DNA from: Asterias amurensis
Taxonomy: Eukaryota > Echinodermata > Asteroidea > Forcipulatida > Asteriidae
Direction of reading: 5' to 3'
DNA: 64,000 nt
NCBI RefSeq assembly: GCF_032118995.1
Contig: NC_092667.1
Coordinates: 4,704,931-4,768,930, forward strand
The stretch's first letter is position 1. The number at the start of each line of letters is the position of its first letter. Below, in pieces: positions 29,101 through 58,892 of this stretch. A program made the position numbers and the translations under genes. The notes under the pieces are model-generated. The model was not told the origin of the DNA. It searched no databases and was given only the letters and a program-made list of their open reading frames with translations.

Positions 29101-32100
29101 GAGTCATTTAAAGGAGTTAAGGACTGGGGCCGAGGAAAAAACTTATAAACATCACCATATAACTAAATGTTTTTGGCGTATTATTGATTTTCACAACACC
29201 CCCTTTCTTTAGTAAAACAGTTTTATAAAAATTAACTCTCATAAAGGGAAAGCTTGGGAAAGGTCTGGTCATGTTTTTACCCCATCCTGTCCCTCGAGTT
29301 TGCTGAACAATGATTAGTTTTCAAAACTCTTGCTGATACGCTATTTACGTATTTATTTATCTTCATTTTCGTTGATATTGTCAATTTTTTGTCATTGAAT
29401 ATGGCATGTCATGTTCAGAAGTAGTAATGTTCGAAATGGGGGAACAATAATTGCTGCTTCTCAAGGCGGGTACCGGGAATTTTATTGAGATTATTTTTTA
29501 TAACAATAAATGAACAATGTGTTCACTATTAATATCCTCTTTCAGAGTTGACTTGTTAGTCGTAATGATGATGAAACTAATTAGCTTTAGTGATTTTCTT
29601 TCAAACACCATGATCATGTCAAAGACTAACGACTTTTTTAGCATGCAATTAATCAGTATGAGCGAGCACTGATGCGTAGTACAAACGTTACGAAACAATT
29701 TCGTTCATCCTTTCAAAAAAAATTAATCATTATAAATATTATTACCAGAAGCCGTTAACGAGAGACACTTCTTTATCCCAGTTATTTATCACTTCTGAAC
29801 CTAATATTCAATGACATCATTAACGAAAAGGATGACACATAAAAATAATAACAAGCCTTGGTAACCGAGGCTTGTTATTATTTTTACGCATCATCCTTTT
29901 CGTTAATTGAACTTGGTTACCTTTTGAAATTTGAACCAAGATTCGAGTAATTAAAATGACAGAGTCTCGAATATTGATCAAACTTGAGCAAACTCGAGTG
30001 GTTCGGATGGGGTTAAACATAATCAAACCATGAAGTTGTTCGGACCATGATTGAAGTAAGCATTAGATAGACTAATGTTCACGTCCAATGATGAGAGAAG
30101 GAGCAAAGAGCTTCATTAACAAAAAAATCACATCACCGTCACACTAAATCCAACATACCTCAAAAGTATCCACTTGTCCCCCGCAGAAATTCGGTGGAGC
30201 TGCTGTTGGCAATTCAGTGGTGGTTGACTCGACTTGGGGCGTATGTTGCAAAGGGGCAGTTGATTGGTCAGTTGAAGGTTGATGATCAAATGGGTTGGTA
30301 GTGGTTAACGGTTCAACAGTTGTGGTTGGATGTTGATACATCGTCGTTGATTGGTCACTTGTAGATTGATGATCAAATGGGTTTCTAGTGGTTAACGGTT
30401 CAACAGTTGTTGTTGGATATTGATACATGGTCGTTGATTGGTCACTTGTGGATTGAAGATCAAATGGGTTGGTAGTGGTTAACGGTTCAACAGTTGTGGT
30501 TGTAGATTGATACATCGTCGTTGATTGGTCACTTGTAGATTGATGATCAAATGGGTTGGTAGTGGTTAACGGTTCAACAGTTGTGGTTGTAGATTGATAC
30601 ATCGTCGTTGATTGGTCACTTGTAGATTGATGATCAAATGGGTTGGTAGTGGTTAACGGTTCAACAGTTGTGGTTGTAGATTGATACGTGGTCGTTGATT
30701 GGTCACTTGTGGATTGAGGATCAAATGGGTGGGTAGTGGTTAACGGTTCAACAGTTGTGGTTGTAGATTGATACGTGGTTGTTGATTGGTCACTTGTGGA
30801 TTGAGGATCAAATGGATGGGTAGTGGCTAACGGTTCAACAGTTGTGGTTGTAGATTGATACGTGGTTGTTGATTGGTCACTTGTGGATTGATGATCAAAT
30901 GGGTGGGTAGTGGTTAACGGTTCAACAGTTGTGGTTGTAGATTGATACGTGGTTGTTGATTGGTCACTTGTGGATTGATGATCAAATGGGTGGGTAGTGG
31001 TTAACGGTTCAACAGTTGTGGTTGTAGATTGATACGTGGTTGTTGATTGGTCACTTGTGGATTGAGGATCAAATGGGTGGGTAGTGGTTAACGGTTCAAC
31101 AGTTGTGGGTGTAGATTGATACGTGGTCGTTGATTGGTCACTTGTGGATTGAGGATCAAATGGGTTGGTAGTGGTTAACGGTTCAACAGTTGTGGTTGGA
31201 TATTGATACGTGGTCGTTGATTGGTCAGTTGAAGGTTGATGATCAAATGGGTTTCTAGTGGTTAACGGTTCAACAGTTGTGGTTGGATATTGATACGTGG
31301 TCGCTGATTGGTCACTTGTAGATTGATGATCAAATGGGTTTCTAGTGGTTAACGGTTCAACAGTTGTGGTTGGATATTGATACGTGGTCGTTGATTGGTC
31401 ACTTGTGGATTGAGGATCAAATGGGTGGGTAGTGGTTAACGGTTCAACAGTTGTGGTTGTAGATTGGTAAGTGGTTGTTGATTGGTCACTTGTGGATTGA
31501 GGATCAAATGGGTGGGTAGTGGTTAACGGTTCAACAGTTGTGGTTGTAGATTGATAAGTGGTTGTTGATTGGTCACTTGTGGATTGAGGATCAAATGGAT
31601 GGGTAGTGGTTAACGGTTCAACAGTTGTGGTTGTAGATTGATACATGGTCGTTGATTGGTCACTTGTAGATTGGTTGTCAGTAGTTGCATTTGGGTTGGC
31701 AGTACCTGCATTTGGGTTGCCAGTACCTGCATTTGGGGTTGGCAGTGGTTAAAATGGTCAGTTGCGTTTGGGTTGGTAGTGGTCAACTAGTCAGTTGCAT
31801 TTGAACTGCAGTGGTTAATGGGTCAGTTGCATTTGGGTTGATAGTGGTCAACTGGTCAGTTGCATTTGGGTTGGCAGTGAGTTGGGCTGGTATGAATTGA
31901 TTTGCTAGCTGAAGTTTGGTATCGGTAGGTTGAGGTTATTGATTCGGTAAAAATGGTTCGAACGGAAACGACAACCATAGACAGAAACTTAAGTCTAGTC
32001 CTAAGTTAGGTCAAGCATGGGTCGAGTAACTCGTCCTAACTCATGATAAGACTTGAATCCACCCCTGGTTCATTCTTTGCGCGAAAACAAAAGACAAGCG

Positions 32101-33095
32101 ACTTGGGTTCACCCACCCCAATTAGATGTTGCAAGACTTATGCAGAAGTAATGAGAGGCGCTGTTTGTCAACTATGGTGACGCAATAAAATTCTCTTTGC
32201 TTTAGCGTGAAATCACGAACCGGGCTTTACGCGACCTAGCATTTTGACGCCAATCACAAAACAAAAGAAATAGCAGTTGTTGAATAAAACAAATATAAAA
32301 ATAATAGTAATAATAACATTTTTATACAGTGCTTTATACACTGCGTCTCAAAGTGCTTCTAACATGATTACCCTTGATCACTGGACCTTTTCATTCCTTA
32401 AACCATGAGCTCCAAGTAGTTCTTGAAAGCTCACCTTTTGAAGTAGTACAGTACCATTTTAACTAAAACGACCAATACAAAATATAGACGTAGATAAGTT
32501 CTGTGTATCATTTTTGTTGACAACTGCACTGTCAAACAGTATAGTCTTGAACAAAATAGTAATGATAATATTCAGACAATAAACTTAGTTTTCTGAGAGA
32601 AAAATAAACTTCATTATGGCATATTTAACTTACATGTGATTATGATCGTGCCCAAGAGAACTACCTGTTTAAGATAAAAAAAACAAAATGAGAAATACTA
32701 AATAGATTATAGCAAGTTCTTTTGTACCGTCGTTTATGCATCAAAGGTTTGATCGAGTCAAAAACCTCAAACAGAAAGCAAACATCGAAAGTGGTCAAAA
32801 ATTAAGCTGTATAAAAAGAATGCTTTGCCGCATTCGATAAATCGATGAAACAAACGTAAACTTATAATTGACAATGGGAGTCAAACGTAAAGGTGGAATA
32901 AAAACGATTGTGAATATTTGACAGGGTTCGAGATAGGCTAAGGGGGTTAAAGTAATTTTGATTCGATTAACACGATTTTTTTTACAAACGTGAATGGTAG
33001 AAAAAACAATTGTTTTTAAAAGTGAGAGATAAATAAAATAACAAATTGAAATCATCAAACTTACCAACGCCGTGAGCCGAAGCATCATGTATCAA
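14114..33095 (-). CDS. Adhesion GPCR copy A (mucin stalk, GAIN/GPS, 7TM), ADGRD-like
   Basis: Exons in gene order: (33095-33065), 31726-30159 (stalk), 28530-28354, 26952-26905, 26506-26398, 26057-25926, 25302-25233, 24599-24479, 23963-23869, 23150-23045, 22118-22000, 21485-21377, 20667-20447, 20021-19961, 18892-18807, 18207-18051, 17262-17200, 16309-16183, 15482-15402, 15072-14960, 14539-14447, 14188-14114. From the GAIN exon on, phase is continuous for 720 residues. The GPS has CAFWNEINETW and KCDCNHSTNFGILM, with the expected cleavage at HS/T. TM3 reads SVFGWMLVEGVHLYMKVVKV, TM6 GMTWLFGLL, and the TM7-tail junction FNSEVRAAF. Adhesion GPCRs self-cleave at the GPS and signal through a tethered agonist (family knowledge). 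The ADGRD-like assignment rests on remembered motif similarity. The 5' end, signal peptide and promoter are not identified. The 5' part of the stalk exon is decayed, so functionality is uncertain. Confidence 0.85.
14722..14800 (+). repeat. tRNA-like pol III unit (SINE head or tRNA pseudogene)
   Basis: A-box-like TAGCCCAGTTGGTAGAGC and a perfect B-box core GGTTCAAGTCC. A seven-base acceptor helix GGCTGGA / TCCAGTC can form, but the anticodon and T stems pair poorly. The duplicated counterpart is at 36022-36095. It is probably a tRNA-derived repeat rather than a working tRNA. Confidence 0.5.
14960..15072 (-). repeat. 12-residue tail repeat in copy A (EPVATPEPIESN)
   Basis: A coding minisatellite in a cytoplasmic-tail exon, with three partial to full 36-bp units (VATPEPIESNEP, VATLEPIESNEP, VTTPEPIEQ). 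The same exon in copy B carries four to five units. It is acidic and Pro-rich and likely disordered. Confidence 0.8.
15073..15098. repeat. AAT microsatellite
   Basis: About seven AAT/TAA units immediately upstream of the tail-repeat exon acceptor. The same tract is found at 36935-36957 in block B. Confidence 0.8.
15570..15745. repeat. Truncated TGTCCGCC foldback element, copy in block A
   Basis: It carries several units of tgcaattgtgtccgccc and tgcatatgcagttgtgtccg. It matches the left half of 37425-37905 and ends where the other two copies continue. The right half is deleted in block A. Confidence 0.7.
17045..17115 (+). repeat. tRNA-like SINE fragment
   Basis: ggtctagttggtaagacact followed by gggttcgaa, an A/B-box arrangement. 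Related copies lie at 21160-21300, 39530-39600 and, inverted, 48765-48870. Confidence 0.5.
17875..18020. repeat. MITE family 2 copy (block A)
   Basis: Ends in aaacagcttgatgcaaattgggccctg, with the internal segment gttgtgactggtgctccact. The duplicated counterpart is at 40300-40440. Confidence 0.6.
18490..18655. repeat. MITE family 2 copy (block A, second)
   Basis: It starts gcccaatttcataaagctgt and ends ctttatgaaattgggccctg, a clear terminal inverted repeat. The counterpart is at 40925-41085. Confidence 0.7.
19445..19910. repeat. ~105-bp tandem satellite in copy A intron
   Basis: About four to five units, each with gctgaaacagggttaccccc, cacagtctataaggatgtag and a catccactaggagcc segment. It ends in agcagaatgcactacc, the same tail as the SINE-like unit at 36190-36540. 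Block B has fewer units (41660-41955). Confidence 0.8.
21155..21310 (+). repeat. tRNA-like SINE fragment
   Basis: gtctagttggtaagacactg and a degenerate B-box region (gggggcgaatcccaccc), followed by a tail with cacatcggtgtatgggtaa. Confidence 0.5.
22185..22345. repeat. Foldback element unique to block A
   Basis: The arms tcgcaaatactgaggtgcgc ... aggtgcattgtgg and ccacaatgcacct ... gtatttgcga are inverted. The corresponding site in block B (about 43800-43835) lacks it. A diverged relative lies at 62180-62300. Confidence 0.65.
23345..23712. repeat. MITE family 1b copy
   Basis: The ends aaagccattggaccctttcg and gaaagtgtataatggcttt are inverted. Internal tctcgtcaacgagaattacg and gcgaaacgcgcgaaaac are present. 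The close relative at 51030-51275 shares the first half. Confidence 0.6.
25018..25150. repeat. MITE family 2 copy (block A, third)
   Basis: tttcattgagcttcttaagc and ctaagcataacaaaattatg, ending in ctgctaagcagaaa. The counterpart is at 46535-46690. Confidence 0.55.
25493..25882. repeat. MITE family 1 copy in copy A intron
   Basis: It runs from aaagacactggacactattg to caatagtgtccactgccttt with near-palindromic internal structure. It is absent from the matching interval of block B. Confidence 0.75.
28555..28882. repeat. MITE family 1 copy in copy A intron
   Basis: It runs from aaaggcagtggacactaatg to caatagtgtccactgtcttt, with the internal inverted pair tttcgagacctcaagtttag / aatttgaggtctcgaaat. 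A second partial copy follows at about 28880-29040. Confidence 0.75.
29818..29908. repeat. Near-perfect hairpin, about 40-bp arms
   Basis: The arms ttaacgaaaaggatga ... aataataacaagcct and aggcttgttattattttt ... tcatccttttcgttaa flank a loop of about nine bases. Block B carries only a degenerate single arm at about 52485. Confidence 0.85.
30159..31726 (-). repeat. Mucin-like stalk exon of copy A: sixteen 29-residue repeats
   Basis: Coding tandem array with an 87-bp unit, close to YQSTTTTVEPLTTT + H/N-PFD-PQSTSDQSTT. It is very rich in Thr/Ser/Pro, the composition of O-glycosylated stalks. It ends AAPPNFCGGQVDTFE before a clean donor. Upstream of about 31726 are remnants of the 21-bp NATT-type units seen in copy B, interrupted by frameshifts and stops. 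In A the acceptor used by B is missing. A cryptic CAG/GT at 31727-31726 keeps the same phase. Confidence 0.85.
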
Positions 33096-33344
33096 CTGAA
33101 GAAAGATAAAAGGGTCCAAAACTTGATCAAAATTGGTTTTTATATTCCAGATTTCTTTCGCAAAAGAAACAAAAATACCTGTAGCATCGTCATTAAAAAG
33201 TACAACCTCATCGTGTTTGTAAAAAGAGCTCATAAAATCACTTAGCGAGCTGTGGGCAGATCTGAAGCTATTCGTCACGGTGCACAGCCCTTGCGGTGAC
33301 AAAGACAGATGGCAATAGTAAAACCGTTTAAGGGCAAATGACAC
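33065..33344 (-). CDS. Possible N-terminal exon(s) of receptor copy A
   Basis: The 31-nt segment 33095-33065 (LIHDASAHGVG) has a strong acceptor and a GTAAGT donor, and its phase fits the stalk exon. It is conserved at 57729-57699 in block B (LIHDDSTHGAG). In A the frame stays open upstream to 33344 with plausible protein (DEVVLFNDDATGIFVSFAKE), so the exon could be longer or the gene could start here. No signal peptide is evident. In B the upstream part is shifted by a one-base difference. Confidence 0.4.
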
Positions 33345-35459
33345 GTTTTGTAATTACTCAAAATATTAGCACAAACACTTACTTGGCTAACGAGCAACCA
33401 AGAGCTTTGATGATAGTATAAAAACATGGTGAGAAAGACTCCCTATTATCATAATTTAACCTAAATATGTTTTTTTGGAGGAAGTCCGAGTATAATCATT
33501 TATTGTTTTAAGTGCACCATACTGTACACAGTGCCAATTAAAAGTTAAAACTTAAAACTGAACTCCCCCTGAAGTAAATTAGTTTTTGAGAAAGAGGCAA
33601 TTTCTCAACAATTATTTTGAGTCTGAGAAAGACTTCCGACCTGATGAAGACTTTCTCGGCCATCTTAAAGCAAACAAGTTTGTGCAGCAAGTGTGTGTTT
33701 CTTCAACGTTATTTTCTTGCAACTTCGATGACCATTGAGCCAGAATTTTCAGATTTGTTATTTTATGCATTAATTATTTTGCTTGGGATACACCAAGTGC
33801 GAATACTGTCTCTTACAATATTACCTAACGTGTCTTATCTCGAGTTAGAACAAATTACTCGTCCTTACTGAGGACTATAGTCATACGTTTTAATATCTCC
33901 TAGGACTAGTCCTAAGTTAGGACTAGACTCTTTGTGAAATCGACCCGTGACTTTAAAGGCAGTGGACACTATTGGTAACTACTCAAAATAATTTTAAGCA
34001 TAAACCTTACTTGGTAATGAGTAATGGGGAGAGGTTGGTAGTATAAAACATTGTGAGAAAGGGCTCCCTCTGAAGTGAAGTAGTTTTCGAAAAAGAAGTA
34101 TTTTTCCACGAATTTGATTTCGAGACCTCAGATTTAGAATTTGAGGTCTCAAAATCAAGCATTATGAAAGCACACAACTTCATGTGACAAGGGCGTTTTT
34201 TCTTTCATTATTATCTCGCAACTTCGACGACCAATCAAGCTCAAATTTTCACAGGTTTATTATTTTATGCATATGTTGAGATACACCAGGTGAGAAGACT
34301 GGTCTTTAATGATTACCAATAGTGTCCAGTGTCTTTAATACTGAAAGTATTTAACATAGTTTGAAGATTTAATTTTTTTAAACTGTTGAAGAAACACTTT
34401 AGAGGAGTCTATTACTTAAAAATTCTGTATATATAACAAGAAAGGCAAACAACTTTTTCTAGAGGATTGGCAATCATAACAACTTTATTTTTATTAAGAT
34501 TTTGTCATGAAACTGAGCAACCCCTGCCATAATAAAACAAATAATATTTTAGGTAGTCGGGCTCTTGTGTGGGTGACGTGATTCTTCACCAGTATTTCCA
34601 TGGCTCAACTTTATTTTTCGGCAAAGGTCTCTGCAGAAAAAAAAAATAACACAAATGAAAAGACATGTCTCATTGTTAACATTAGTTTTTGGCAAAATAC
34701 AAGACAAAACCAGGGGATCTGCGGGCTGAATTGTTTCTTTCCCCGTCTTTCACCTCTGTGGACCCCCTGTTCCAATCCCACCCCAGACCAGTGCCTTGCA
34801 CGTGGATTTGGTTCTTAGTCTCTGCCTGATTGCGTGGGTTTTCCCCCATTGGGGTTTTCCTCTCACGTCTTAACCATTTAGCCACTGGACCGCCCAGCCA
34901 CCTATCGATATACTGTACGTGGTAGGAGGAAACCTTGCTAGCTTGTGTTTGTAGAAAAAAAGGAACGTCAAAAGAATCTTCGATAGTCATTATTAAGCTA
35001 ATGAAGCTAATGATGATGAAATTATTTAGCTCTTACCCCAACAAAACGCTCATCAGTAAACACAAAGGAAACTGTATTTATTCATCATTCATGATAATAT
35101 TGTCGAAAACTCACGCCTTCGCATTTAATCAGTATATAGTTGAGTCAGATAAAAGCCTTGAAAAGCTATTGTGTCCGTTTTATCTTTACAAACAAATTTT
35201 CGCCATAAAAATTACCGTAGCCGTTTAACGAGAGACATTTATTGTTCTCATGCGAACTTGTACTTTTATACAAATATCAAGGTTCAAATTGTGCATAAAA
35301 TTTAAGCTGTGGCTATCTTTTAAAATTTGAACTACGATTCCAGTAATTAACTGCAAGAATCTTGAAATATTAGTTTTCAGCAAACTCGGGCGGTGCAGGG
35401 ACTACAGGGTTAAACAGATAATTCCTTCTTGTCTCCTATTCATCCTGTTATTGTCGTAA
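33096..35459. other. Interval between receptor copies A and B
   Basis: No complete gene is seen apart from the possible N-terminal exon of copy A up to about 33344. It holds diverged MITE family 1 (33340-33790), a family 3 MITE (33835-33950), the duplication junction MITE (33953-34345) and a SINE-like stretch around 34740-34910. The promoter of copy A should be here or just upstream of 33344, but cannot be recognised. Confidence 0.45.
33953..34345. repeat. MITE family 1 at the A/B duplication junction
   Basis: It runs from aaaggcagtggacactattg to caatagtgtccagtgtcttt. It marks both the end of block A and the start of block B, so it may be the recombination site. Confidence 0.75.
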
Positions 35460-38400
35460 TCAAAGACAAGAAAACCAAACTCTACGGTTCACTAGACGCC
35501 ATTTCAGTAAGCAACCCTTCTGATGCAACAATAGAAGTGCAGACAATGACCATCCTCCATGACTATTTCACGTTTCAACAACAAAAGAGCTCAAGTTTAG
35601 CGCTGTTTGATGTGTCATGGAATAAATAAAATCTCTAATAAAATGAAGTATAAACATATTATGAGAACCTCTTCTTTGAATTGTTTCCCTTCACATAATT
35701 ATACAATTATTTCCCTACAGTTTTTAACAATAAGTTTCTATTGTACCTTGCTAATGATATTTTTGTGTGGTTTGAGGGCAGGACATGGAGCTAGCACTAA
35801 CGCCTCTACTGGACTGACTGGAGGTGTTTTCAGGCATTCCTATTAAAAACAAACACAACAAAAATTCACAAAGTTACAAGTTGCGTCAAAGAGATAAACT
35901 TCAACAACAAATTCATCAAAATACAACACTGTGCCTTGTGAACTCACTCATTCTCTCTTCTGTTACAGTAGTTTGTTTGGGTTTGAAAAAGATAATTGAC
36001 CATTAGGGAGCTCGCCAATATAGGGATGGGTAGCTCAGTTGGTAGAGCGAGGTGCATTCAGGTGTCATTGGTTCAAGTCCTGCTCCAGTCAATTTGTCTT
36101 TGTTCAAACCCAAACTATTTATAAACTTACCCAGTCAGTTTCCCTTATGGTTTATTACTGGTTAATTTGTTTGATTACCAAGTTGTCATGGTAACACGCC
36201 TACCCTTGGGCGGAAACAGGGTTAACAGTCACAGTCTGTCAGGATGTAGGCATGTGGGTATCATCAACTACACAAGGAGCCACCCACTCCTGAGGCTGAA
36301 ACAGTGTTACCCCTTTACAGTCCCTAAGCATGTAGGTATGGGCATCATCCACTAGGACCATGGTTGGTAGAGCAGAATGCACTACCTTCCCAATTTTTAC
36401 AAAGCAATTATAGTTAAGTGCCTTGCTCAATGGCATAAGTGTCATGACCAGGATTTGAACCCACACTGACTGCTGACAGCACCAGAGCTTGGGTCCGGTG
36501 AAGTAGACCGCTCAGCCACGACACGCCACAAGCTTTCTGAGAGCTTTGTTTTTTCCCCATAGACAATGGCCAGATTGGTGAAAAGACTTTATCAGTGTCA
36601 CTAGCCATTGGCCAATGTGATCAAGGCATTTAACTCAAATAATATTGTTGTTTTACCTAGACTGAATTCAGCACAGCTGTACACGATCATTACCATTATA
36701 TTAAAGTTCATAACGACATAACAAGTCACATGGAAGACTAACTGTTACTCTTTAGAGGTTTTACCTGTTCGATCGGTTCGGGAGTAGCGACAGGTTCATT
36801 TGACTCGATCGGTTCGGGAGTAGCGACAGGTTCATTTGATTCGATCGGTTCGGGAGTAGCGACAGGTTCATTTGATTCGATCGGTTCGGGAGTAGCAACA
36901 GGTTCATCTGGTTCGCTTGGTGCCACCGGCACTGTAATAATAATAATAATAATAATTTATACAGTGCAAATTCCAAAATAATTTTGTTCGAATGCAATAA
37001 ACTATAAAACATAAAATAAATAAAAAAATACACTGTAAAAATATACATATGCACACATTCAAATGAGAAAAGGAAACACCAATAATATTAATGTGTAGTA
37101 CAGTAAAAGGAGCCAGACACTGTCATTAAAGAGCATTTGAGTTTTAAAATTTATAAAAACAGTGACAACAATCAAAAAGAATGAGCCATCAACATCATTC
37201 CAAAGTTTTGTTACCAGCCAAGGACAACCGCTAAATACTAGAAAGTCCCTTACCTGGTGGAGATGACGGAGTACCAGGGAGTTCCATTGAGCTACTGCAG
37301 GATGGAGTGCTTGTCCTGCTGGATACGACGATATCTAAAAAACCAGAAAACAACAGTCATTACGAAACAACTATTGATTCATTGGGAGGATGAAGGTAGC
37401 CGGTTGCTGAGAGATGATTCTCGCATGCAATTATGTCCTCCATGCAATACTATCCGGAGGACATTATTGCATATGTATGTCTGCCGGACGGTTTTGCATA
37501 TGCAATCGTGTCCGCCCGGACGCTGCTGCATAATGCAATTGTGTCCGCCCGGACACATTTGCATATGCAGTTGTGTCCGCCCCGTGCAAAACCGTCCTTG
37601 CAGTAAATTAAACGCCCTTGGTCGACGGAACACATTCGCAATTTCTTTTACAAGCTAAGTGCATTTCATGAATGACATGAGAAATGTTCGGCCATTGATT
37701 GGGTTGGGTATTCGCTGCAATCATAAAATACGTGAATATTCATGCTGCATAGGTTCAGTGCATGCACGCTCGCTTACGTGCACACATACTTGTACATTCA
37801 TGTACATGTCCACCGGACGTTTTTTGCATAGCCCCGGACACAATTGAATATGCAAAAGTGTCCGGAGCGGACAGTATTGCATGGCGGACACAATTGCATC
37901 TGACATGGGCACTTGCCAGGGTGCGACTCAGTTATGGAAGTTGGAGTAACCAAAGTTTTCTGTTAAATGTGCCATTTATTTTCTCTGTGTGCGCCTTGGG
38001 TTTCTTTATTGACAGACATGTGCGCGGTATAAATATATAACTATTATAAATTATTATATTACCGACAGACTGTGCTTGTCTCGCTCTTGGCTTGATTCTA
38101 GCGAGTCCAGCGTCAATGTTAAATGGGCAATCTTTGGACCAGTGCCCTGACAGTCTGCAGCTGAAGCAAATGTCAGCAAGTGGCATGCCTGTCCAACAAA
38201 AACATGGAAAACTAGAGCTGAGTGATCGTTTGCGAACGAAACACAGAGCTGTTCCACTTCAACTGACGGATTCTTGAAAACTGCACCTTTATAAGGTAAC
38301 ATCATGTGACAAGCTTTTTAAATAAAGCATGTTCATGTAAAATAACGCACTTTTTGCAAATTCAAGATACAACTTGTTTGCATTAACGTGACAATATCTA

Positions 38401-41400
38401 GAGTATTTTTTTTGACATTCGCTTTTTAATGACAGTTAAATTTTTAACTTTCTTTAGCTCTTCTGTTATTTCTGTACATGTACTTGTGAATTCAGGCCCA
38501 AATAAATATTATATCTCTATTGTAATAACATGGGGGTGAAAACAATTGAAAATTTTATTTGATTTCCTCACACCTTCTTCAGGGACAGTTTCAGGTTCGT
38601 GGTCGAGACCATCATCTTCAATTTGTATGCTAGTAGGGTCAGGTAAAAACTCAGTTTCTGTCACCTTTGACTGCATGGGTAAGATCTGTGTAAGAAAAGA
38701 GAAGTTTGAAAAAGAGTTTAAAAAGATGAATGCTGTCAACATTGCATTTCTAGAGGAGTAAACCCATTAAAATGTCTACTCATTTTGATTGAAAAAAGTA
38801 AACTTGATAATTTCCGAATTAAAAAAAAACACATACTGATAGCATACTGATCGAGAAGTTGAGTTGTCAACCACGGGTTCTTCTGAGAAACCACCACTAC
38901 TCAAAAGAGATTTACACAAGGTGCTACAGCAACACCTCACCAGAAGGAAACTTTAACTGCCATCTAGAAAGATCTTAAAATCAACTTCAAAAATCAACGT
39001 TAATAACATTGATAAAGTTGTGTTTTAAAATGTTTATAAATGGAGCATAAATTGTTCAGCGCCAAGAAGCATGTTTCATGGATGGGAGCTATATAAATTG
39101 TCATTATTATTTATTATTATACATCATCATTTAAGAGAGGGTAAAACGTTTGGTAAATACTCGAAAATGCCCATAAAACTCACTTGGTAAAAAGCACTTG
39201 AGAGCTGCTGATATTATAAAATGTTGACCAACAAAAATTATCAACAATGTGCAGAAAGGCACTTTATACTGTCACTCAAAGTGTCAATCTTTCTGCTAGG
39301 CTAATTTTGCATCTATTAAATTGTTACAGTACCTGCCGTCGATTTCACAAAACTCTTCCTAACTTAGGATTAATTTTAGGACTTAGGACGAGTCCCAACC
39401 CTGCACTGTAGCATGCAGACCTTAAGATTAATCCTAAGTTACTCGTCCTAACTCAAGATAAGACGAGTCCTTTTTTGTGAAATCGACGGCTGCTACTAAA
39501 ACATAGGATTCAAACTGTGCCTCGAGATACCGGACAATCTCATGGTCTAGTTGGTAAGAAAACAACGCTCTAGAATTGCACTGGTGATGGGTTCTAAAGA
39601 ATTAAGTACACAAAGCAGTATAGAAACACACATTGTTGCAAACCAAATTTACTAAACTAGAACAATCTCGTTACCCTGGAGTTAAGTGCCATCTCCTGTC
39701 GACGCTTGTCTCGTTTACGCACAAATGCTGCTCTGACCTAATAAAGATGGGCGGAGAAAAGTAACAATTCTTTGTAACAAGATAAAGTACAAAGGCCTGT
39801 TTCTTTATATTGATTATTTCTTCGGTTAAAAGGGATTGTCTCACTAAAACATTTTGATAACAAGTTCAGAGGAGAAATATTGCTATTTAATGACAACTTC
39901 CCCCATCACTTTTCTGACAGTCTCCCTCCAACAAAACGGTTGTACATAACCCGACAAAGAACTCCTTCTCTGTTCAAAGAAACAGGGTCCAAGATACAAA
40001 GGTCGACAGGCCTTGAAATAACCAAAGGCACCCACAGCGAGTGCCATGGTGCCATGTGCTTTTGCTGTGGTGCCCTTTGCAAAGTTCAAATGCAAAATTG
40101 CTGTGCCCCTTGACAAGCGAAGTTCAGGGTGGACGATTTTCAGAGCTCTATAATCTTATCTGTAGGAAACTGTTTATCTCACCGAGTAAACATTTCATGG
40201 CTGCCCACATTTTCGGGCAGTTGGTTTTGGACATCAGATTTCCCTTAAAAACCTATATGAGATGAATAGCTTCTTCTAGCACAAACAAACCAGCTAAGCC
40301 CTGGAAAATCTTGCTTAACAAAAACAGATTACCAGCCAACATTCCATCAAGTTTACACTGTTGTGACTGGTGCTCCACTCAATTTTTGTTAAGCAGTATT
40401 TTCTGCTAAACAGCTTGATGCAAATTGGGCCCTGCAAGTAACTCTTGGAAGGATTGAAAGTTCACTGACCTCTGAGTTGAATACGCAATAGATCAGAAAG
40501 ATGAAGAGTCCCTGGAGAGTATTGAAGATGATGAAGAGATACTCGAAAACCTCTCCGCTGCCATCGAACATTAGCAGTCCAAAGAGCCACGGCATTCCCA
40601 TGATGGGCATGAGAACGAGGGCGCCCTTCACGCCAGATCTTACGACAAGATGAAGGACAGAAAATCAGTAAAACGTAACATCTCACCAAACATGGGACCT
40701 ATGTCATACTCGCAACTGAAGCAAAACATTTTTCTCAGAAAAACTGAATATAAGGTCAACTGACTGGGTTAATTTTTTAATATTTAGGGCGACCACCAAC
40801 ATTAGAACTAGATAGCACGCATACAGTCAAAATGAAATGTACTTTGATTGACATTTTATTAATCCAAATTCGCCAAGCAATACTTTTTATCTAGTTAGCA
40901 AATTTTAACTTGGTAAAGATTAGCCCCCAATTTCATAAAGCTGTTAAGCAGAAAATAGGTGGGGCACCAGTCACAACAATGTAAACCTTGTGGACTTTTG
41001 GCTGGTAAACAGTTTCTGCTCAGCAACATTTTATCTTTGCTTAGCAAGTTTCTGTGCTTACAGGCTTTATGAAATTGGGCCCTGAATATTTAGCTTGTTA
41101 AGATCAACTCAAGCTTGGATGGCCTAAGCATCGGGTCAGTGTTTGAGATGTTAAAGAAAAGGACGGTCTAACAATCCGGGAAGTTTGACATCACCCTCCC
41201 CCAACCACACATTGACATTATTTTACTCACTTGATGTGGTCATAGTTTTTCTCTTGATGTAACCGAGCTGATTTCATAATGATCCGGATCACCATCGTAA
41301 AAACAATCATGTTGAACTACGAGAAATCACAAAAATAAAGTACATGGTCAAAATACGATTATGCAATTCTTTTTAATACTTGGATTGATGAAGGAGTCTT

Positions 41401-44400
41401 AAAGGCGAAAAAGAAATAACTCTGTCGAAAAAATTATGTTTGTCTCAAGTCAGAAGCTGCTTTTTAGGGGCTATTTAGAATGGTCAATGTTCAATAAAAA
41501 TTCAGATATTTTTTTTTGAAATTGTGTTGACCCATCGACACACCCCAATTTACGATCCATTATTTTTTAGAAAAGTTTTATGAGAGATCGCCTTACCTCA
41601 CAAGACCAGAAGGCAACTTCAAAGTGAGCGCTACACTTAACTGATTTGGGCTATCGATTTAAATCAACTGCCACTAGGGGATTGCCACCTACTGGGCTGA
41701 AACAGGGTTACCCCCTTCACAGTCTGTAAGGATGTAGGCATGGGGATTCATCCACTAGGAGCCACCTACTCCTGGGGATGAAACAGGGTTACCCCCTTCA
41801 CAGTCCATAAGGATGTAGGCATGGGTAGCATCCACTAGGAGCCACCTACTCCTGGGCTGAAACATGGGTACCCCTTCACAGTCTATAAGGATGTAGGCAT
41901 GGGGGATCATCCACTAGGAGCCTGGCTGATAGAGCAGAATGCACTACCTTCCCAACTTTTTATGAAGCAATTATGGTCTGGTTTTGTTTCTACTTACCAT
42001 TACAACTACTATGACTGGTACTACAAATAAGAAGATACTGTACCCGACAAGCCAACAACTGCAAGAAATAAATACATGTTCTATGATTCAAAAGAATGAA
42101 TGAATACTTAGCACTGCAACACTCCTAGGATTGAAAAAATTATAATGATGGTAAGTATTGTCTGAAGCTTTGCATGGTGTGAATGACAAGGAAAAAACTA
42201 TAAATAAATAAATAATAAAATAGGTCTCTTTAGTGGGAGTGTTGGCTCTGAAAAGAGCTGGTTTTCAGGAGTTGAGCAAAGTACACTGTTTAAAACGTCG
42301 AGACCACACCGGCTCTTTTCAGAGCCTTCGGCCTCGAGAAATAGGTTCCTCTTCTGGTCACTCAAAGTCCCTCAGGGAAATAGACGTACACTAGTAACCT
42401 CATTGCCATTCAAAAAGTGGATAATAGTTACTTCCTAAATATTATGGTAGATGATTGGAAATAAATTGTTCATAATTGATTATTTACGTTGTCTTTGATC
42501 CGTATCCTCCGTTGTTTGCACCAAAAGATATGGCGCATATTACAGCCGGAGCGACCCATCCGATGAGAATGTAGCGGTACATCTTAATGTTCTCACTGCC
42601 GTAGACTTTGACCACCTTCATGTAGAGATGCACCCCCTCTACCAACATCCAACCAAAGACCGACAGGTAGAAGAAATGCAGAAACAGGGCGATGATCTTG
42701 CAGACAACCTATCAGAAAGCAGATAAATACATTCAGTGTTGTAGCTAGAACAACTGTAGTGTTTGGGCTCTTAATCCAATTTAGTCCACCAATGGCGAGC
42801 CGTTCAACAAAATTATTCATGTTTGGGTATGGGGCCATCATTGCTGAAGTGCAATCAAGGGGAAATCTGTGCTGGGCAGCACAGTGTATTTTGCTCAGAG
42901 TATTTTGACCACCGTGGCTACAACACTGCTTGCATTATAAGGTCAGGTGGACAGTAAAACATTTGGTGTACGTTTTTTAACATTTGCCAGCCCAACAGAC
43001 TAAGAAGTTTGCTGTGTCACTGGCTTCTACTCTGCGCAAAGAAGTTGTCGAACTTGAGAAAGAAATCGATTTGAATACAGATGAAAAAGACAAAAAGGCG
43101 GCGTCATGATAAAGGTATACTTTGCAGGAATAGTTGAACAGACTACTGACCGGGTTTCCATTTCCACGATCAACACCGCCAACAAATAAGATCAGAGCCA
43201 CCAAGAGAGCTACAACTAGGTTAGTATGAATGAAAATACGATCAAACTGCAACATCGTCCTGATAGAGAGAAAAATAAATTGATAAGAAACAATTAATAA
43301 CTATTCAAAATGAGAAGAAAAAAATTGCTTGCATAGTTTAACATGAATTTAACTTGTTTTATATGCGAGCACAAAGACATGTACGAGAACATTTATGTCA
43401 TTTTTCTTACAAATAAATTATACCTGAGAACTCATAGAATTGAACAAAAATTAACAATTGTTTTTCTTCATTATTTTCTTGCAATCTGGATGACGAGTTG
43501 AGCCAACATTTTCAAGACATTGTTACTTAAGGTTACATGAAGTTTGGATACTGGTCGTCAACAATTACCCATATTATACCCTGCTTTTAAAATGAGACAA
43601 TAACTTGCTTACCACAAATAGATGTAAATAGTGAGTTGGAGGACCAGTGCTAATATTGACACCCCAACGCCAATATAAGAAAGCCAGTCGAGAGGTTCCA
43701 AGACTGTGATTTCTGGTAGAATCTTAGTTTCCTACAGTGAATATTAAAAACACAAACGTTATGGTTAGCATGTGGAAAGCTCTATCTGTGGGGGGGGGGG
43801 GTCTTCGCTAAGTATGATCGACGACTTTTCTCACAAAAGAACAACTTAACATTGTTCCGATCAAAAAAAAATTACGCCAATCCTTAATTAAAAATGATTT
43901 AGCAAAGTGGTCATAAGCAAAGTTTGTTAGTTCATTTGGAGATGACAATACTCTTAAATAAATTTATGGTTGCAAAAAATCCAAGATGCTTTCATAATTT
44001 CTTAAAACATTAATTTCCCTCGGTGAGGCGGATGACCAGCTGTGCCTTTTATATCACTTTTTAATCTCAACTGCACTATTCTGATTCAGGCTCAGGTGTC
44101 ATTTTCATCCACATCTGTTGATTTTGTTTGTTTTGTTTAGTTTGGGGGGTTTTGCATGGAGGAAATTTTTTGTCAATTTAATTAGTTCTGAATCTGAATC
44201 TGAATTACACAGTCGGCAAAGCATCCTCATGGAAACATCACACCAATTTTTAGTAGAAGGAAAATTTTCCAAACCATATACTACTACAAAGGGAATCCTT
44301 TCTCAAAATAGTTTATACTATCAACAGCTGCAGTCCTTCTCACCAAGTAAGTTATTGTCATTATTTTTTGGTGCACTTACCAATCTATGACCCTCACAAA

Positions 44401-50400: not shown

Positions 50401-53400
50401 GGTCGAAGGTCACCGATACAAACTTTAATATGCAAATGAGAAAGTTGTCTCGGCCCCAAGAGGGCGCACTTTTGAGGTGAATTGGCCCAATTATTTTTTG
50501 TTCTGCTTTTGGGAACGCACGCATCAAGCGAACCCTTTCTGGATCAAAAGGTCTGACTGGGTCCCGTTGGGGCTTGACCCATTTTGGATCAGTAAGACCG
50601 GGATCAGGGTCAAAATGACACAAAAGGGTAAATATTAGACAGAATCCGAGATGAAAACCCCACTTTCCGGGTCAGGCCCCCTCTACTGGGACCGTACCAA
50701 GTCAATTCTGACCCGAGAGATTTCGGAGTGTGAATAAAACACACACAGGAACATTACTACGGCCTTGTACATTTCGTCGTTGTTATAGCCACCCCCCAAT
50801 CCCCGACCTACCGTAGCGACGCTATCTGTCTCGCTCTTTGACAGCCGTGTATCTGTGGGCAGAGACGCAATGCTCGTAAGGAAGTCTTCTAGGGCGAACT
50901 TCTGGTCAGCCGTTAGCTTCCCAGGAGCCTCGTCCACGCCAATGCTGTTATTGTTATTCCTGCTGCTGACGTTACTGTTGCTGCTGCTGCATTTGATGGC
51001 GTCCTGTAAAATAGAATATTGTGCAATTTTAAAGCCATTATACACTTTCGGAACAGAAAAAAATAATAAAAATTCACAGATTTACAAATAACTTACAGGG
51101 TTTACAAAAGGTAATGGTGAAAGACTTCTCTTGAAATATTAGTCCATGAAATGCTTTACTTTTCGAGAAAACATTAAAACATTAAATTATCAATTCTCAC
51201 TAACGAAAATTACGGATTTATTTTGAACACATGTTTAGACAATACTGTTTACCGAAAGTGTCCAATGGCTTTAAAGGCACTGGACACCTTTGGTAAAAAT
51301 CTCATTCGGTGAAATCCCAACATAGAATACTGTAACAAACCTTAGAAAATTTGAATTATAAATTGGTATTGAAGTTGCGAGGAAATAATGAAAGGAAAAC
51401 ACCCTGTTTTTGTATGCAAGTCGCCAGACACACATGCAAGGCCTGAAGGCCACTTCAAGGTGTTGGCTACAAATTCGTTGCACATTTTGTGTGCTTTGCC
51501 TAATAAGAGGCTTCAGGCCTGAAGTATTTTAACATAACATTGAGTGAGAATGTTATATGAACTACTACCAACAGCTCCCCATTACTCGTTACCAAGTAAG
51601 TTTTTTATGCTAACAATTATTTTGAGTAATTACCAATAGTGTCCACTGCCTTTAACTTGGGGGTAGCAAGTCTGTAGGCACGTCTTAAGGAGTCAAGGAC
51701 TATAGGGGCAGAGGAAAAACCTATTAACATACCAGCCAATAACTAACTGTTTTTGGCTTGATCAAAAGCTTAACATATTATTATTAATTAGTTAGATATA
51801 GAGGATTTTCATGAAGGCAACCCCTTCTTTTAGTAATCAATTTCACAAATTTCACTCTCATGAAACGGACAGTTTGGGAAAGGTCTATATAATTTTTAAT
51901 TTTTTTAATCCCCGTCGCTCGAGTTTGCTGCAATGAATAATGTCTAGTTTTCAAGACTCTTTCAGTAATTAAGAACGTGTTTCAAAGGGCAATATCCAAA
52001 TCTTGTTACTTCAATATGTATTTTTTTATCTCCCTTTTCGCTAGTTTTCATTTCTTTTATTTTATCATTGTATATTTCATGTGAATAATTTATATACTTG
52101 CATGGAACAATATTAAGTGCCTTTTGTTATTAATGGTTACCGGGAATTTTTTAGCGATTATTTTTTATAGGATGGGCAATAATTGTTTGTGTTCATAGTG
52201 AGTTCCTCCTTTACCATTCACTTGTACGGTGAAACTAATTAGCTTTAATGTGATTTCTTTCTTCACCATGATAATGTCGAAAAACTAATGACTCGGCATG
52301 CAATTAATCATTATGAGCATTGATGCGAGGTGTAAGCCTTCAAAAACAATTTTGTTCATCCTTGAAAAAAGGAATCATTATACACAAATTACTGGTAGCC
52401 GTTAACGAGAGGCATTCATTTTGTTGTTTCCCTAGTATTAATTTATCACTTCCGAGCCTAAATGAATAATCATGAAATCATTAACGAAAAGGACAATTGT
52501 ACGTAAAAATACAACAAGTTATGGGTATCTTTTGAAATTCGAACTGAAATTCTAGTAATATTTACTGACAGAGTCTCGGAAAATGATCATCTTTTTAGCA
52601 AACTCAAGCGATTGGAATAGAAATAATTGAGGTCTTCGGAAATGATTGACTGAGTAAGCACTGGATAGGACAGGTGGACTATTGGTCACGTTTAAATGAT
52701 GAGAGAAGGGGGCCTTTCTGTTGTGTTTTGTTTCGGTCACAGATGACCGGTTTTATATAGTTTCGAGTTGAGAGGTTTTTTATTAATGCCCTTTTTCTTG
52801 TTTGCACATCTTCCTCAACCTATAGGGATCGGTTGCCATGGTTTGAACTTTGCATTTCTCTAATGCATGGCAACAGACCCAATATTAAATATTTGTACGT
52901 ACGAGAGTAACTTTGTGGGCAGGTTTTGTTATAAATGAAACACAAAAGAAAAGTAACAGAACTGAGAAGTCTCCCGAACCTCCATTTATCTACTCCGCGG
53001 CAGTAGAATAAAGCAAGACAGTTCCCTAAGAACAACTCTACCTGGCAAGTAGATACACACATGGTGTTACCGCAAACCAAATATACAAAAGTAACATTGT
53101 TAATAGACCTTATGCACATGACGTCATTTCAGTACGGCGCCCCCGCATCGAGGTCAAAAGGAGTTTGTTCATTGGCCAATCTATGTGCGTTTCGATTGTT
53201 TCGTCACCGTTTGACCTCAAAGATGGCGGCTGGATGACGTCAATGCATAAGGTCTATGTTTGCCCTTATGGACACGTTTAAAACTTTTATCATAGTACAA
53301 CACTGCAGGGGGAAATCCCACAATGTCTGTCGATCCGATAAGAATGTCACATTATTTTGACCTAATCACGTCACCACTACGTCACACTAATCCAACATAC

Positions 53401-56400
53401 CTCAAAAGTGTCCACTGGTCCCCCGCAGAAATATGGTGGAGCTGCTGTTGTCATTTCGTTGGTTGACTCGACAAGGGGTGTAGATTGATACATGGTCGTT
53501 GATTGGTCAGTTGTATATTGAAACATGGTCGTTGATTGGTCAGTTGTAGGTTGGTACATGGCCGTTGATTGGTCACTTGTAGATTGATACATGGTCGTTG
53601 ATTGGTCAGTTGTAAGTTGATACATGGCCGTTGATTGGTCAGTTGTAGATTGATACATGGTCGTTGATTGGTCAGTTGTATGTTGATGATCAGTTGGGTT
53701 GGTAGTGGTTAACTGGTCAGTTGCATTTGGGTTGGCAGTAGTTGCATTTGGGTTGGCAGTAGTTGCATTTGGGTTGATAGTAGTTGCATTTGGGTAGGCA
53801 GTAGTTTCATTTGGGTAGGCAGTAGTTGCATTTGGGTTGATAGTGGTTGCATTTGGGTAGGCAGTAGTTTCATTTGGGTAGGCAGTAGTTTCATTTGGGT
53901 AGGCAGTAGTTGCATTTGGGTAGGCAGTAGTTGCATTTGGGTTGATAGTGGTTGCATTTGGGTAGGCAGTAGTTTCATTTGGGTTGATAGTGGTTGCATT
54001 TGGGTAGGCAGTAGTTTCATTTGGGTAGGCAGTAGTTGCATTTGGGTAGGCAGTAGTTTCATTTGGGTAGGCAGTAGTTTCATTTGGGTAGGCAGTAGTT
54101 GCATTTGGGTAGGCAGTAGTTGCATTTGGGTTGATAGTGGTTGCATTTGGGTAGGCAGTAGTTGCATTTGGGTTGATAGTAGTTGCATTTGGGTAGGCAG
54201 TAGTTTCATTTGGGTAGGCAGTAGTTGCATTTGGGTTGATAGTGGTTGCATTTGGGTAGGCAGTAGTTTCATTTGGGTAGGCAGTAGTTTCATTTGGGTA
54301 GGCAGTAGTTGCATTTGGGTAGGCAGTAGTTGCATTTGGGTTGATAGTGGTTGCATTTGGGTAGGCAGTAGTTTCATTTGGGTTGATAGTGGTTGCATTT
54401 GGGTAGGCAGTAGTTTCATTTGGGTAGGCAGTAGTTGCATTTGGGTAGGCAGTAGTTTCATTTGGGTAGGCAGTAGTTTCATTTGGGTAGGCAGTAGTTG
54501 CATTTGGGTAGGCAGTAGTTGCATTTGGGTTGATAGTGGTTGCATTTGGGTAGGCAGTAGTTGCATTTGGGTAGGCAGTAGTTGCATTTGGGTTGATAGT
54601 GGTTGCATTTGGGTACGCAGTAGTTGCATTTGTGTCGGTAGTGGTTGCATTTAGGTTGATAGTGGTTAATTGTTTAGTTGAAGTTGGGCTGGTAGTTGAA
54701 GTTGGGTATTGGTAGGTTGGGATAATTGGTTCGGTTGTGGCAGTCACATTACCTAAAAGTGGTTCGAACGGAAATTGCAACAATCAATGACAGTGAACGT
54801 GTTTATATTCATCATAACAAGTAACAGGGCCCAATTTCATAGAGCTGCTTTCCAGCAGATTTCTTAGCAGAAAAGAGCAGGATACCACTCACCGATTGTA
54901 CATGTGAAATGTTATTTTGGCTGGTAACCTCATTCTGGTAAGCATTATTTTTGTTGTGCTTAGCTACTTTTTTGTTCTTAAGCAGCTCTATGAAATTGGG
55001 CACAGGAATTGAGTTATATTGCAAAACAGATACATCAAAGTCTGCAATACGATGGTTATGGCCGTAAACACGCTGGCCGGAATGCCCAAAAGTGCAATCC
55101 TCTGATATTTACTGTTGTCGTTTCAGCCAACAGCCATGCCGCGCCGTAGCCGAGTCGCTGGATTTTTCGGGTTCATTCTTCGCGAGAAAATGCACGAGAA
55201 ACAAATTTTGGTTCCCCCACCCCCAATTTACCCAATGCAAGACTTATGCAGAAGTTAAAGTGCCTGTATTTTTTAAGATTATATATTGTGATACTTGGAA
55301 ACAAACAAACAAACAAACAAACAAACAAACAAACAAACAAACAAACAAACAAACAAACAAACAAACAAACAAACAAACAAACAAACAAACAAACAAACAA
55401 ACAAACAAACAAACAAACAAACAAACAAACAAACAAACAAACAAACAAACAAACAAACAAACAAACAAACAAACAAACAAACAAACAAACAAACAAACAA
55501 ACAAACAAACAAACAAACAAACAAACAAACAAACAAACAAACAAACAAACAAACAAACAAACAAACAAACAAACAAACAAACAAACAAACAAACAAACAA
55601 ACAAACAAACAAACAAACAAACAAACAAACAAACAAACAAACAAACAAACAAACAAACAAACAAACAAACAAACAAACAAACAAACAAACAAACAAACAA
55701 ACAAACAAACAAACAAACAAACAAACAAACAAACAAACAAACAAACAAACAAACAAACAAACAAACAAACAAACAAACAAACAAACAAACAAACAAACAA
55801 ACAAACAAACAAACAAACAAACAAACAAACAAACAAACAAACAAACAAACAAACAAACAAACAAACAAACAAACAAACAAACAAACAAACAAACAAACAA
55901 ACAAACAAACAAACAAACAAACAAACAAACAAACAAACAAACAAACAAACAAACAAACAAACAAACAAACAAACAAACAAACAAACAAACAAACAAACAA
56001 ACAAACAAACAAACAAACAAACAAACAAACAAACAAACAAACAAACAAACAAACAAACAAACAAACAAACAAACAAACAAACAAACAAACAAACAAACAA
56101 ACAAACAAACAAACAAACAAACAAACAAACAAACAAACAAACAAACAAACAAACAAACAAACAAACAAACAAACAAACAAACAAACAAACAAACAAACAA
56201 ACAAACAAACAAACAAACAAACAAACAAACAAACAAACAAACAAACAAACAAACAAACAAACAAACAAACAAACAAACAAACAAACAAACAAACAAACAA
56301 ACAAACAAACAAACAAACAAACAAACAAACAAACAAACAAACAAACAAACAAACAAACAAACAAACAAACAAACAAACAAACAAACAAACAAACAAACAA

Positions 56401-58419: not shown

Positions 58420-58892
58420 CGCATGCAATTATGTCCTCTATGCAATACTATCCGGAGGACATTATTGCATATGCAATAATGTTCGCCGGACGGTTTTGCA
58501 TATGCAATTGTGTCCGCCCGGACGCTGCTGCATAATGCAATTGTGTCCGCCCAAACACATTTGCATATGCAGTTGTGTCCGCTCCCGTGCAAAACCGTCC
58601 TTGCAGTAAATTAAGCGCCCTTGGTCGACGGAACACGTTCGCCTTTTTTTTTAAAGCTAAGCGCATGTCATGAATGACATGGGAAATGTTCGGCCGTTGG
58701 GTATTCGCTGCAATCATAAAATTCGCTGCAATCATGAAATACGTGAATATTCTTGCTGCATATGCTGCTTACGCGCGCACATACATTATACAGTCATGTC
58801 CACCGGACGATTTTTGCATAGCCCCGGACACGATTGCATGTGCAAAAGTGTCCGGAGCGGACAGTATTGCATGGCGGACACAATTGCATCTG
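58420..58892. repeat. TGTCCGCC foldback element, third copy
   Basis: Full-length relative of 37425-37905, inserted in MITE family 1 sequence. Left end gcatgcaattatgtcctct, right end ggcggacacaattgcatctg. Confidence 0.8.

Follow-up and report, generated by a model that had tools for sequence, protein, structure and literature searches.

Different coding minisatellites at one putative stalk exon of tandemly duplicated adhesion G protein-coupled receptors in Asterias amurensis

ADGRG4 (GPR112) is a mammalian adhesion G protein-coupled receptor (GPCR) whose ectodomain is described as carrying a long, mucin-like stalk of Ser/Thr repeats between a pentraxin-like tip and an HRM domain, and this stalk has been proposed to act on the GAIN domain as a spacer and shear sensor (PMC10687090). 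The older name of the ADGRE or EGF-TM7 receptors (EMR, CD97) also includes the term “mucin-like”, and N-glycosylation is reported to affect both cleavage and trafficking of adhesion GPCRs (PMC13197933). Among mucins, PTS (proline, threonine and serine) repeats have been gained and expanded recurrently in existing genes, and exons with coding variable number tandem repeats (VNTRs) are known (PMC12776774). Here, we describe two tandem genes, A and B, on the minus strand of a 64,000-nucleotide stretch of chromosome 20 of the sea star Asterias amurensis (4704931-4768930; “the window”), in which a homologous exon holds a different coding minisatellite in each gene. We consider it probable that this is the N-terminal glycan-stalk exon of tandemly duplicated adhesion GPCRs and that its minisatellite forms a spacer coupling force to the GAIN and seven-transmembrane (7TM) regions.

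With ADGRG4, these genes share a predicted ectodomain stalk of Ser/Thr repeats and, with the VNTR exons of MUC1-type mucins, a coding minisatellite within an exon. Unlike in ADGRG4, the modelled stalks of A and B directly follow the signal peptide and that of B is dense in N-glycan sequons, while in contrast to mucins the repeats belong to a receptor family whose sister genes amplify different units, one of them dominated by N-x-T. ADGRE5 is, like ADGRL3 and ADGRD1, among the solved structures closest by sequence. EGF modules are the hallmark of ADGRE/EGF-TM7 receptors, but Pfam found none in the parts of A and B that were scanned. Coding-minisatellite turnover is thus known from mucins, and what appears to be new here is a putative mucin-like adhesion-GPCR stalk for which sister genes use different units. 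Literature searches on adhesion-GPCR stalk repeats, sequon or minisatellite paralogues, sea-star adhesion GPCRs and the expansion of echinoderm adhesion GPCRs yielded, in the titles and abstract beginnings of the matches listed, no account of this receptor family or of a GPCR stalk made from an N-sequon minisatellite. We know of no receptor with an “N-glycan mucin” stalk derived from a sequon minisatellite, and B would be the first if the boldest reading given below were true.

The stalk exon in sister receptors A and B

Judged by their sequences, genes A and B are adhesion GPCRs (class B2). A conceptual splice of gene A matches Pfam PF00002 (7tm_2; E 1.1e-32) and PF01825 (GPS; E 1e-11, over the full 45-position profile), and the 7TM segments of gene B were assigned through alignment with A. 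The H-x-S/T motif known as the GPS cleavage site of adhesion GPCRs (PMC13062082) is present in both genes (CNHSTNFGILM in A, CSHSTNFGILM in B). Exons of the GAIN region are conserved among the paralogues, and the Pfam scan returned no GAIN match. A and B align in many blocks across ~22 kb, introns included, and 98 of 102 residues in two 7TM segments are identical. Their dN/dS of 0.38 at a pS of 0.088 (16 segments, cut to the aligned parts where lengths differed; 29.5 synonymous versus 38.5 nonsynonymous differences) says that the pair was constrained in the past but is no proof that gene A is intact today.

Phase-consistent models of both genes comprise a signal peptide, the stalk, a GAIN-type region, the GPS and the 7TM region (Table 1). 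The signal peptide, read by eye, spans two short exons (MMLRLTAL/VVLLGTIIIT in A, MMIRLTEL/VFLLATIK in B), the second of which differs in length between A (31 bp) and B (25 bp) without a change of frame. The joins of signal peptide to stalk exon and of stalk exon to exon 4 are in phase in both genes, and the mature receptor therefore appears to begin with the stalk. The first-pass annotation, made from the letters of the window alone, had named transcripts that skip the stalk exon in both genes as evidence that would speak against its account; in our models, such transcripts would yield no receptor because in either gene the shifted frame soon meets a stop (immediately in B, after ten residues in A).

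As the same annotation had noticed, the stalk exons of the two sister receptors both terminate in AAPPxFCGGxVDTFE at the same donor (AAPPNFCGGQVDTFE/gtatgttgga at 30159 in A, AAPPYFCGGPVDTFE/gtatgttgga at 53401 in B), and the upper limit that it had set for its stretch, 54752, is exactly the stalk acceptor of B. Its unit counts were also borne out. Tandem Repeats Finder (TRF) reports an array of period 87 in gene A (30259-31673; 16.3 copies, 95% match, 0% indels) that reads as sixteen exact steps of a Thr-rich 29-residue unit, 15 of the 16 being distinct at the DNA level. The array of gene B has a period of 21 (53719-54656; 44.7 copies, 87% match, 0% indels) and reads as 45 steps of a 7-residue NATT-type unit, the last of which merges into the next segment. 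Both frames stay open across the entire array. In genome-wide searches, the 87-bp unit scored at no fewer than 21 places (≥17 inside the exon of A, ≥4 inside that of B), and a 42-base pattern of two 21-bp units gave at least 27 matches, all inside B’s array, with 0 for the reversed control.

Part of this array growth is recent, since an 18-unit block (378 bp) occurs twice in identical form in B’s array while A and B differ at a pS of 0.088. Such an exact repeat and a perfect 1.8-kb AAAC run nearby might also mean that the arrays were collapsed or expanded during assembly, a documented kind of error (PMC6868369), and that the unit counts are artefacts. We regard this as very improbable in view of the distinctness of nearly all A units, and the unit types, the flanks and the differences between paralogues are independent of copy number.

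The stalk of B contains 46 N-glycan sequons in 450 residues, a number that none of 2000 shuffles reached (mean 17.6), versus only 2 in the 522 residues of A (shuffle mean 5.6; 76 of 2000 shuffles as low). The large change in sequon density that the first-pass annotation had claimed is therefore real, whereas the change from an O-glycan to an N-glycan surface that it drew from it is a prediction. A Pfam DUF6640 match of the B stalk stayed below the curated cut-off (E 7.1e-5), and we regard it as an artefact of composition.

The A/B ancestor probably carried both repeat types, in the order NAT then TDQST, because B retains one copy of A’s 87-bp unit (78/87 bp, 86% identity) and A retains NAT/NATT relics in the same order as in B. 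A two-repeat ancestor had been proposed before, and the proposal holds for the A/B pair, to which this ancestor is local.

Splicing of the gene A stalk exon

The relics in gene A (31728-31879) had been described as broken NATT-type units. Broken they are, but they consist mainly of a 33-bp unit (TRF) of the type NATDQLTT(I/T)NP, and just three units are of the NATT type, one of which retains its sequon. Their anchors are spaced by 33, 32, 33 and 35 bp, which breaks the frame, and then by 21 and 21 bp at the NATT-type units, and the stretch has stops in all three frames. In the alignment with B, gene A lacks 19 bp that contain B’s stalk acceptor, and the broken relics are best explained by the loss of this acceptor, after which they probably came to lie in an intron. 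Among the AG sites scanned in A, two alone, 31726 and 31705, are in phase and keep the array open from end to end, and both sit within NPNAG variants of the 21-bp unit; 31662, inside the first A unit, reads open but in another phase. An acceptor-like AG at ~31910 was rejected, as the right phase runs into a stop after ~17 codons. We read this as the loss of the old exon boundary in A and the use of a weak new acceptor inside the repeat.

With the old acceptor lost and the remaining AG sites poor in T, the splicing of A is in doubt: the gene may be dead, or its transcripts weakly spliced or re-routed. Only 2 and 3 T are found in the 20 nt upstream of 31726 and 31705, respectively, whereas 17 other inferred acceptors have 6-15 and that of B has 7, while the pyrimidine fraction at 31726 (0.55) is that of A’s exon 4 acceptor (0.55). 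The A stalk might thus be hardly expressed or not at all, through another first exon, mis-splicing or a dying N-terminus, and its O-type stalk would then be no real alternative to that of B. We hold this to be rather unlikely, given that all 16 units of the A array are free of indels, that the array has a pN/pS of 0.61 and that the putative signal peptide is intact. The 16 compared receptor segments of A are open as well, though they were chosen for openness and speak for themselves and not for the stretches between them, and recent amplification could keep an array open for a time.

The stalk position in related receptors

Repeat differences extend beyond the A/B pair in that related receptors on chromosome 20 differ at the same exon. 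A search with TM exons gave at least 25 scored matches, and the seven at ≥68% identity, all on chromosome 20, were taken as paralogues A to G (the others were at ≤59%). For each of the five relatives outside the A/B pair, 30 kb of surrounding sequence were analyzed, considering TRF arrays >100 bp and open reading frames of ≥50 residues; stalk starts were guessed for E and F, and that of C was set behind a signal peptide identified by eye. An unrooted FastTree phylogeny of 102 residues (one E residue is X) joins A with B (0.948) and F with G (0.998), and, outside the pair, D has the highest identity to A (84/102; C, 78).

Gene C enters the window from the right, with 7TM exons at 61-64k, and has a stalk of 1242 residues composed mostly of 17- and 18-residue units (68 anchors). 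The stalks of F (217 residues, 99-bp periods) and E (131 residues, no TRF array >100 bp) are Thr/Ser-rich. G lacks the array of F: the flanks of this array adjoin in G (F 21316-21367 corresponds to G 19389-19440 and F 21935-22013 to G 19435-19510, in coordinates of each locus), where a short open remnant with a frame of ~25 residues stands in its place. The array either collapsed in G or was born in F. Paralogue D has a similar exon end but no recognized stalk array, as judged by TRF arrays >100 bp. A and B share 16 6-mers between their stalks and C and F share one, while none links C, E or F to A or B. The first-pass annotation had cast the difference between A and B as a switch from O-glycan sites to N-sequons; a simple two-way switch was rejected on these grounds, and its direction finds no anchor in the other paralogues, given that D has no recognized array and G a mere remnant.

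What precedes the donor is similar among most paralogues, with FCGGQVDTFE in A, FCGGPVDTFE in B, CGEEVNSYE in C, CSLPDVNSYQ in E and CSEGPVDSLQ in F, and less similar ends in D (CTLDDVHNCFA) and G (SSEGPADFLQ). At the sequence level, the stalk exon position holds in-frame coding minisatellites of fast turnover, with a conserved 3′ boundary, next exon and 7TM region. The Cys at the stalk end and a Cys in exon 4 are both present in six of seven paralogues and both absent from G, and this joint retention or absence suggests that a disulphide between them clasps the base of the stalk.

Some features of these loci stand apart. In both F and G, an immunoglobulin-like exon precedes the stalk position (Ig_3 with E 1.5e-7 in G; in F, Ig_3 with E 1.9e-5, below its cut-off, and C2-set_2, above its own). 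The GPS stretch of D (C20:3794875-3794979) reads SDCISNHSTSF compared to SKCDCNHSTNF in A and misses one usual GPS cysteine. A 30-bp array of C (“QWETTQPYTS”; C20:4772648-4774189, 51.5 copies) was considered as a second stalk and rejected, as it sits after exon 4 and before the later GAIN exons. Spacing changes of 1 bp (intervals of 29 and 59, one each among 38) break its frame, and it is probably intronic.

Table 1. Features of genes A and B (window coordinates)
Feature	Position	Strand	Basis
Gene A exon 1, 3′ part (end of 5′ untranslated region, ATG 33088, MMLRLTAL)	33065..33095	-	GT donor, B homology, phase; inferred
Gene A exon 2, remainder of inferred signal peptide (VVLLGTIIIT)	32634..32664	-	AG/GT bounds
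Gene A site without the 19 bp that hold B’s stalk acceptor	31941..31950	-	A/B alignment
Gene A NAT repeats with broken frame (now probably within an intron)	31727..31880	-	anchor spacing; stops in all three frames
Gene A stalk exon (2 sequons in 522 aa; sixteen units of 87 bp)	30159..31726	-	candidate acceptor 31726, alternative 31705
Gene A exon 4 (helix of the GAIN region, second conserved Cys)	28354..28530	-	end read from sequence
Gene A GPS exons (CAFWNEINET; WSTRGC...CDCNHSTNFGILM) with intervening intron	23045..23963	-	Pfam PF01825
Gene A 7TM segments TM1 to TM7, with introns	18048..22076	-	Pfam PF00002
Gene B exon 1, 3′ part (ATG 57722, MMIRLTEL)	57699..57729	-	homology, phase
Gene B exon 2, remainder of inferred signal peptide (VFLLATIK)	57281..57305	-	phase
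Gene B stalk exon (46 sequons in 450 aa)	53401..54752	-	acceptor ccacttttag/GTAATG, donor gtatgt
Gene B array of the 21-bp N-sequon unit (44.7 copies)	53719..54656	-	TRF
Gene B near-complete copy of A’s 87-bp unit (78/87 bp, 86%)	53642..53719	-	genome search
Gene B 33-bp array TDQSTTMYQST, 6.3 copies	53479..53687	-	TRF
Gene B exon 4 (helix of the GAIN region, second conserved Cys)	50812..51003	-	end read from sequence
Gene B 7TM segments, with introns	40467..43689	-	similarity to A

Within the window, gene A spans ~33.1k to 13.7k and gene B ~57.7k to 34.6k, with the C-terminal residues RPLPKNKVEPWKYW of B at 34630. The putative intron between exon 2 and the stalk exon of B contains the perfect (AAAC)n run (55299-57101, ~1.8 kb, 450.8 copies, 100% match). 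A tandem unit of 31-33 bp around TTGCATATGCAATTGTGTCCGCC is found with each gene unit (15630-15719, 37484-37582 and 58439-58582) and also at locus D.

Selection, predicted glycans and possible function

In all 44 full units of the B array, the Asn codon is invariant and the Thr codon of the sequon varies only synonymously, so that N-x-T is kept without proline at x; codons 2, 5, 6 and 7 change the amino acid. This suggests selection on the sequon, and does no more than suggest it because pN/pS within the array is 1.67 overall (1.22 among distinct units) and the units are not independent. Values are lower for the arrays of A (0.61) and of the C stalk (0.56), and the 30-bp array of C, serving as a rough non-coding control, gave 0.76 to 1.16 depending on frame. 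It is possible, if not our preferred explanation, that turnover is neutral, i.e., that a disordered spacer tolerates any in-frame Thr-rich minisatellite and that the sequon density of B is a by-product of the unit that happened to be amplified. The pN/pS above 1 in B would fit such turnover, as would the different repeat content of each stalked paralogue, its non-recognition in D and its absence from G. Less expected under neutrality are the sequon kept in all 44 units, albeit units related by recent duplication, and the Thr/Ser-rich composition (32-59%) maintained throughout the five stalks measured.

Serine and threonine make up 44.6% of A (29-residue unit), 32.4% of B and 58.6% of C (17/18-residue unit), and A and C display the Ser/Thr-rich tandem repeats within a large exon by which mucins are recognized. 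We infer that stalk glycans would be mainly of the O-type in A, C, E and F and N-glycan-dense in B.

Several points weigh against a force-coupling glycan stalk as we propose it, beginning with the T-poor acceptors of gene A. The B array displays no general purifying signal, and D and G have no recognized array. The N/O contrast is not absolute, as the 11 sequons in the 1242 residues of the C stalk slightly exceed the shuffle mean (7.2; 46 of 2000 shuffles reach 11). Gene models and glycosylation are predicted from sequence, with signal peptides read by eye, and the mechanosensing step is drawn by analogy to ADGRG4 (PMC10687090).

In the scenario that we favor, the exon of the A/B ancestor would have held NAT-type and TDQST-type repeats, and B would have amplified the 21-bp sequon unit and A, which lacks the old acceptor, the 87-bp Thr-rich unit. 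Mature receptors would start with the glycan stalk and have no adhesive domain ahead of it, and the stalk would serve as a spacer through which drag or lectin-bound force reaches the GAIN domain and may expose the tethered agonist after HS/T. The class of sugar would set stiffness, reach and lectin partners with unchanged coupling to the 7TM region, and A and B would present different glycan stalks on almost one signalling core. That one hypermutable exon gives each sister receptor its own N- or O-glycan coat, selected for different lectin or mechanical inputs and possibly allele by allele, is a bolder idea that we find distinctly improbable.

For adhesion GPCR stalks, the transfer of force to the tethered agonist has been proposed. 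With one near-identical 7TM region and stalks that differ in length and predicted glycan class, A and B form a natural comparison set for the function of stalk glycans, to which F and G would add what resembles a pair in which one member alone has a stalk array. More broadly, our findings suggest that recurrent repeat gain, as in mucins, can rewrite a receptor ectodomain repeatedly.

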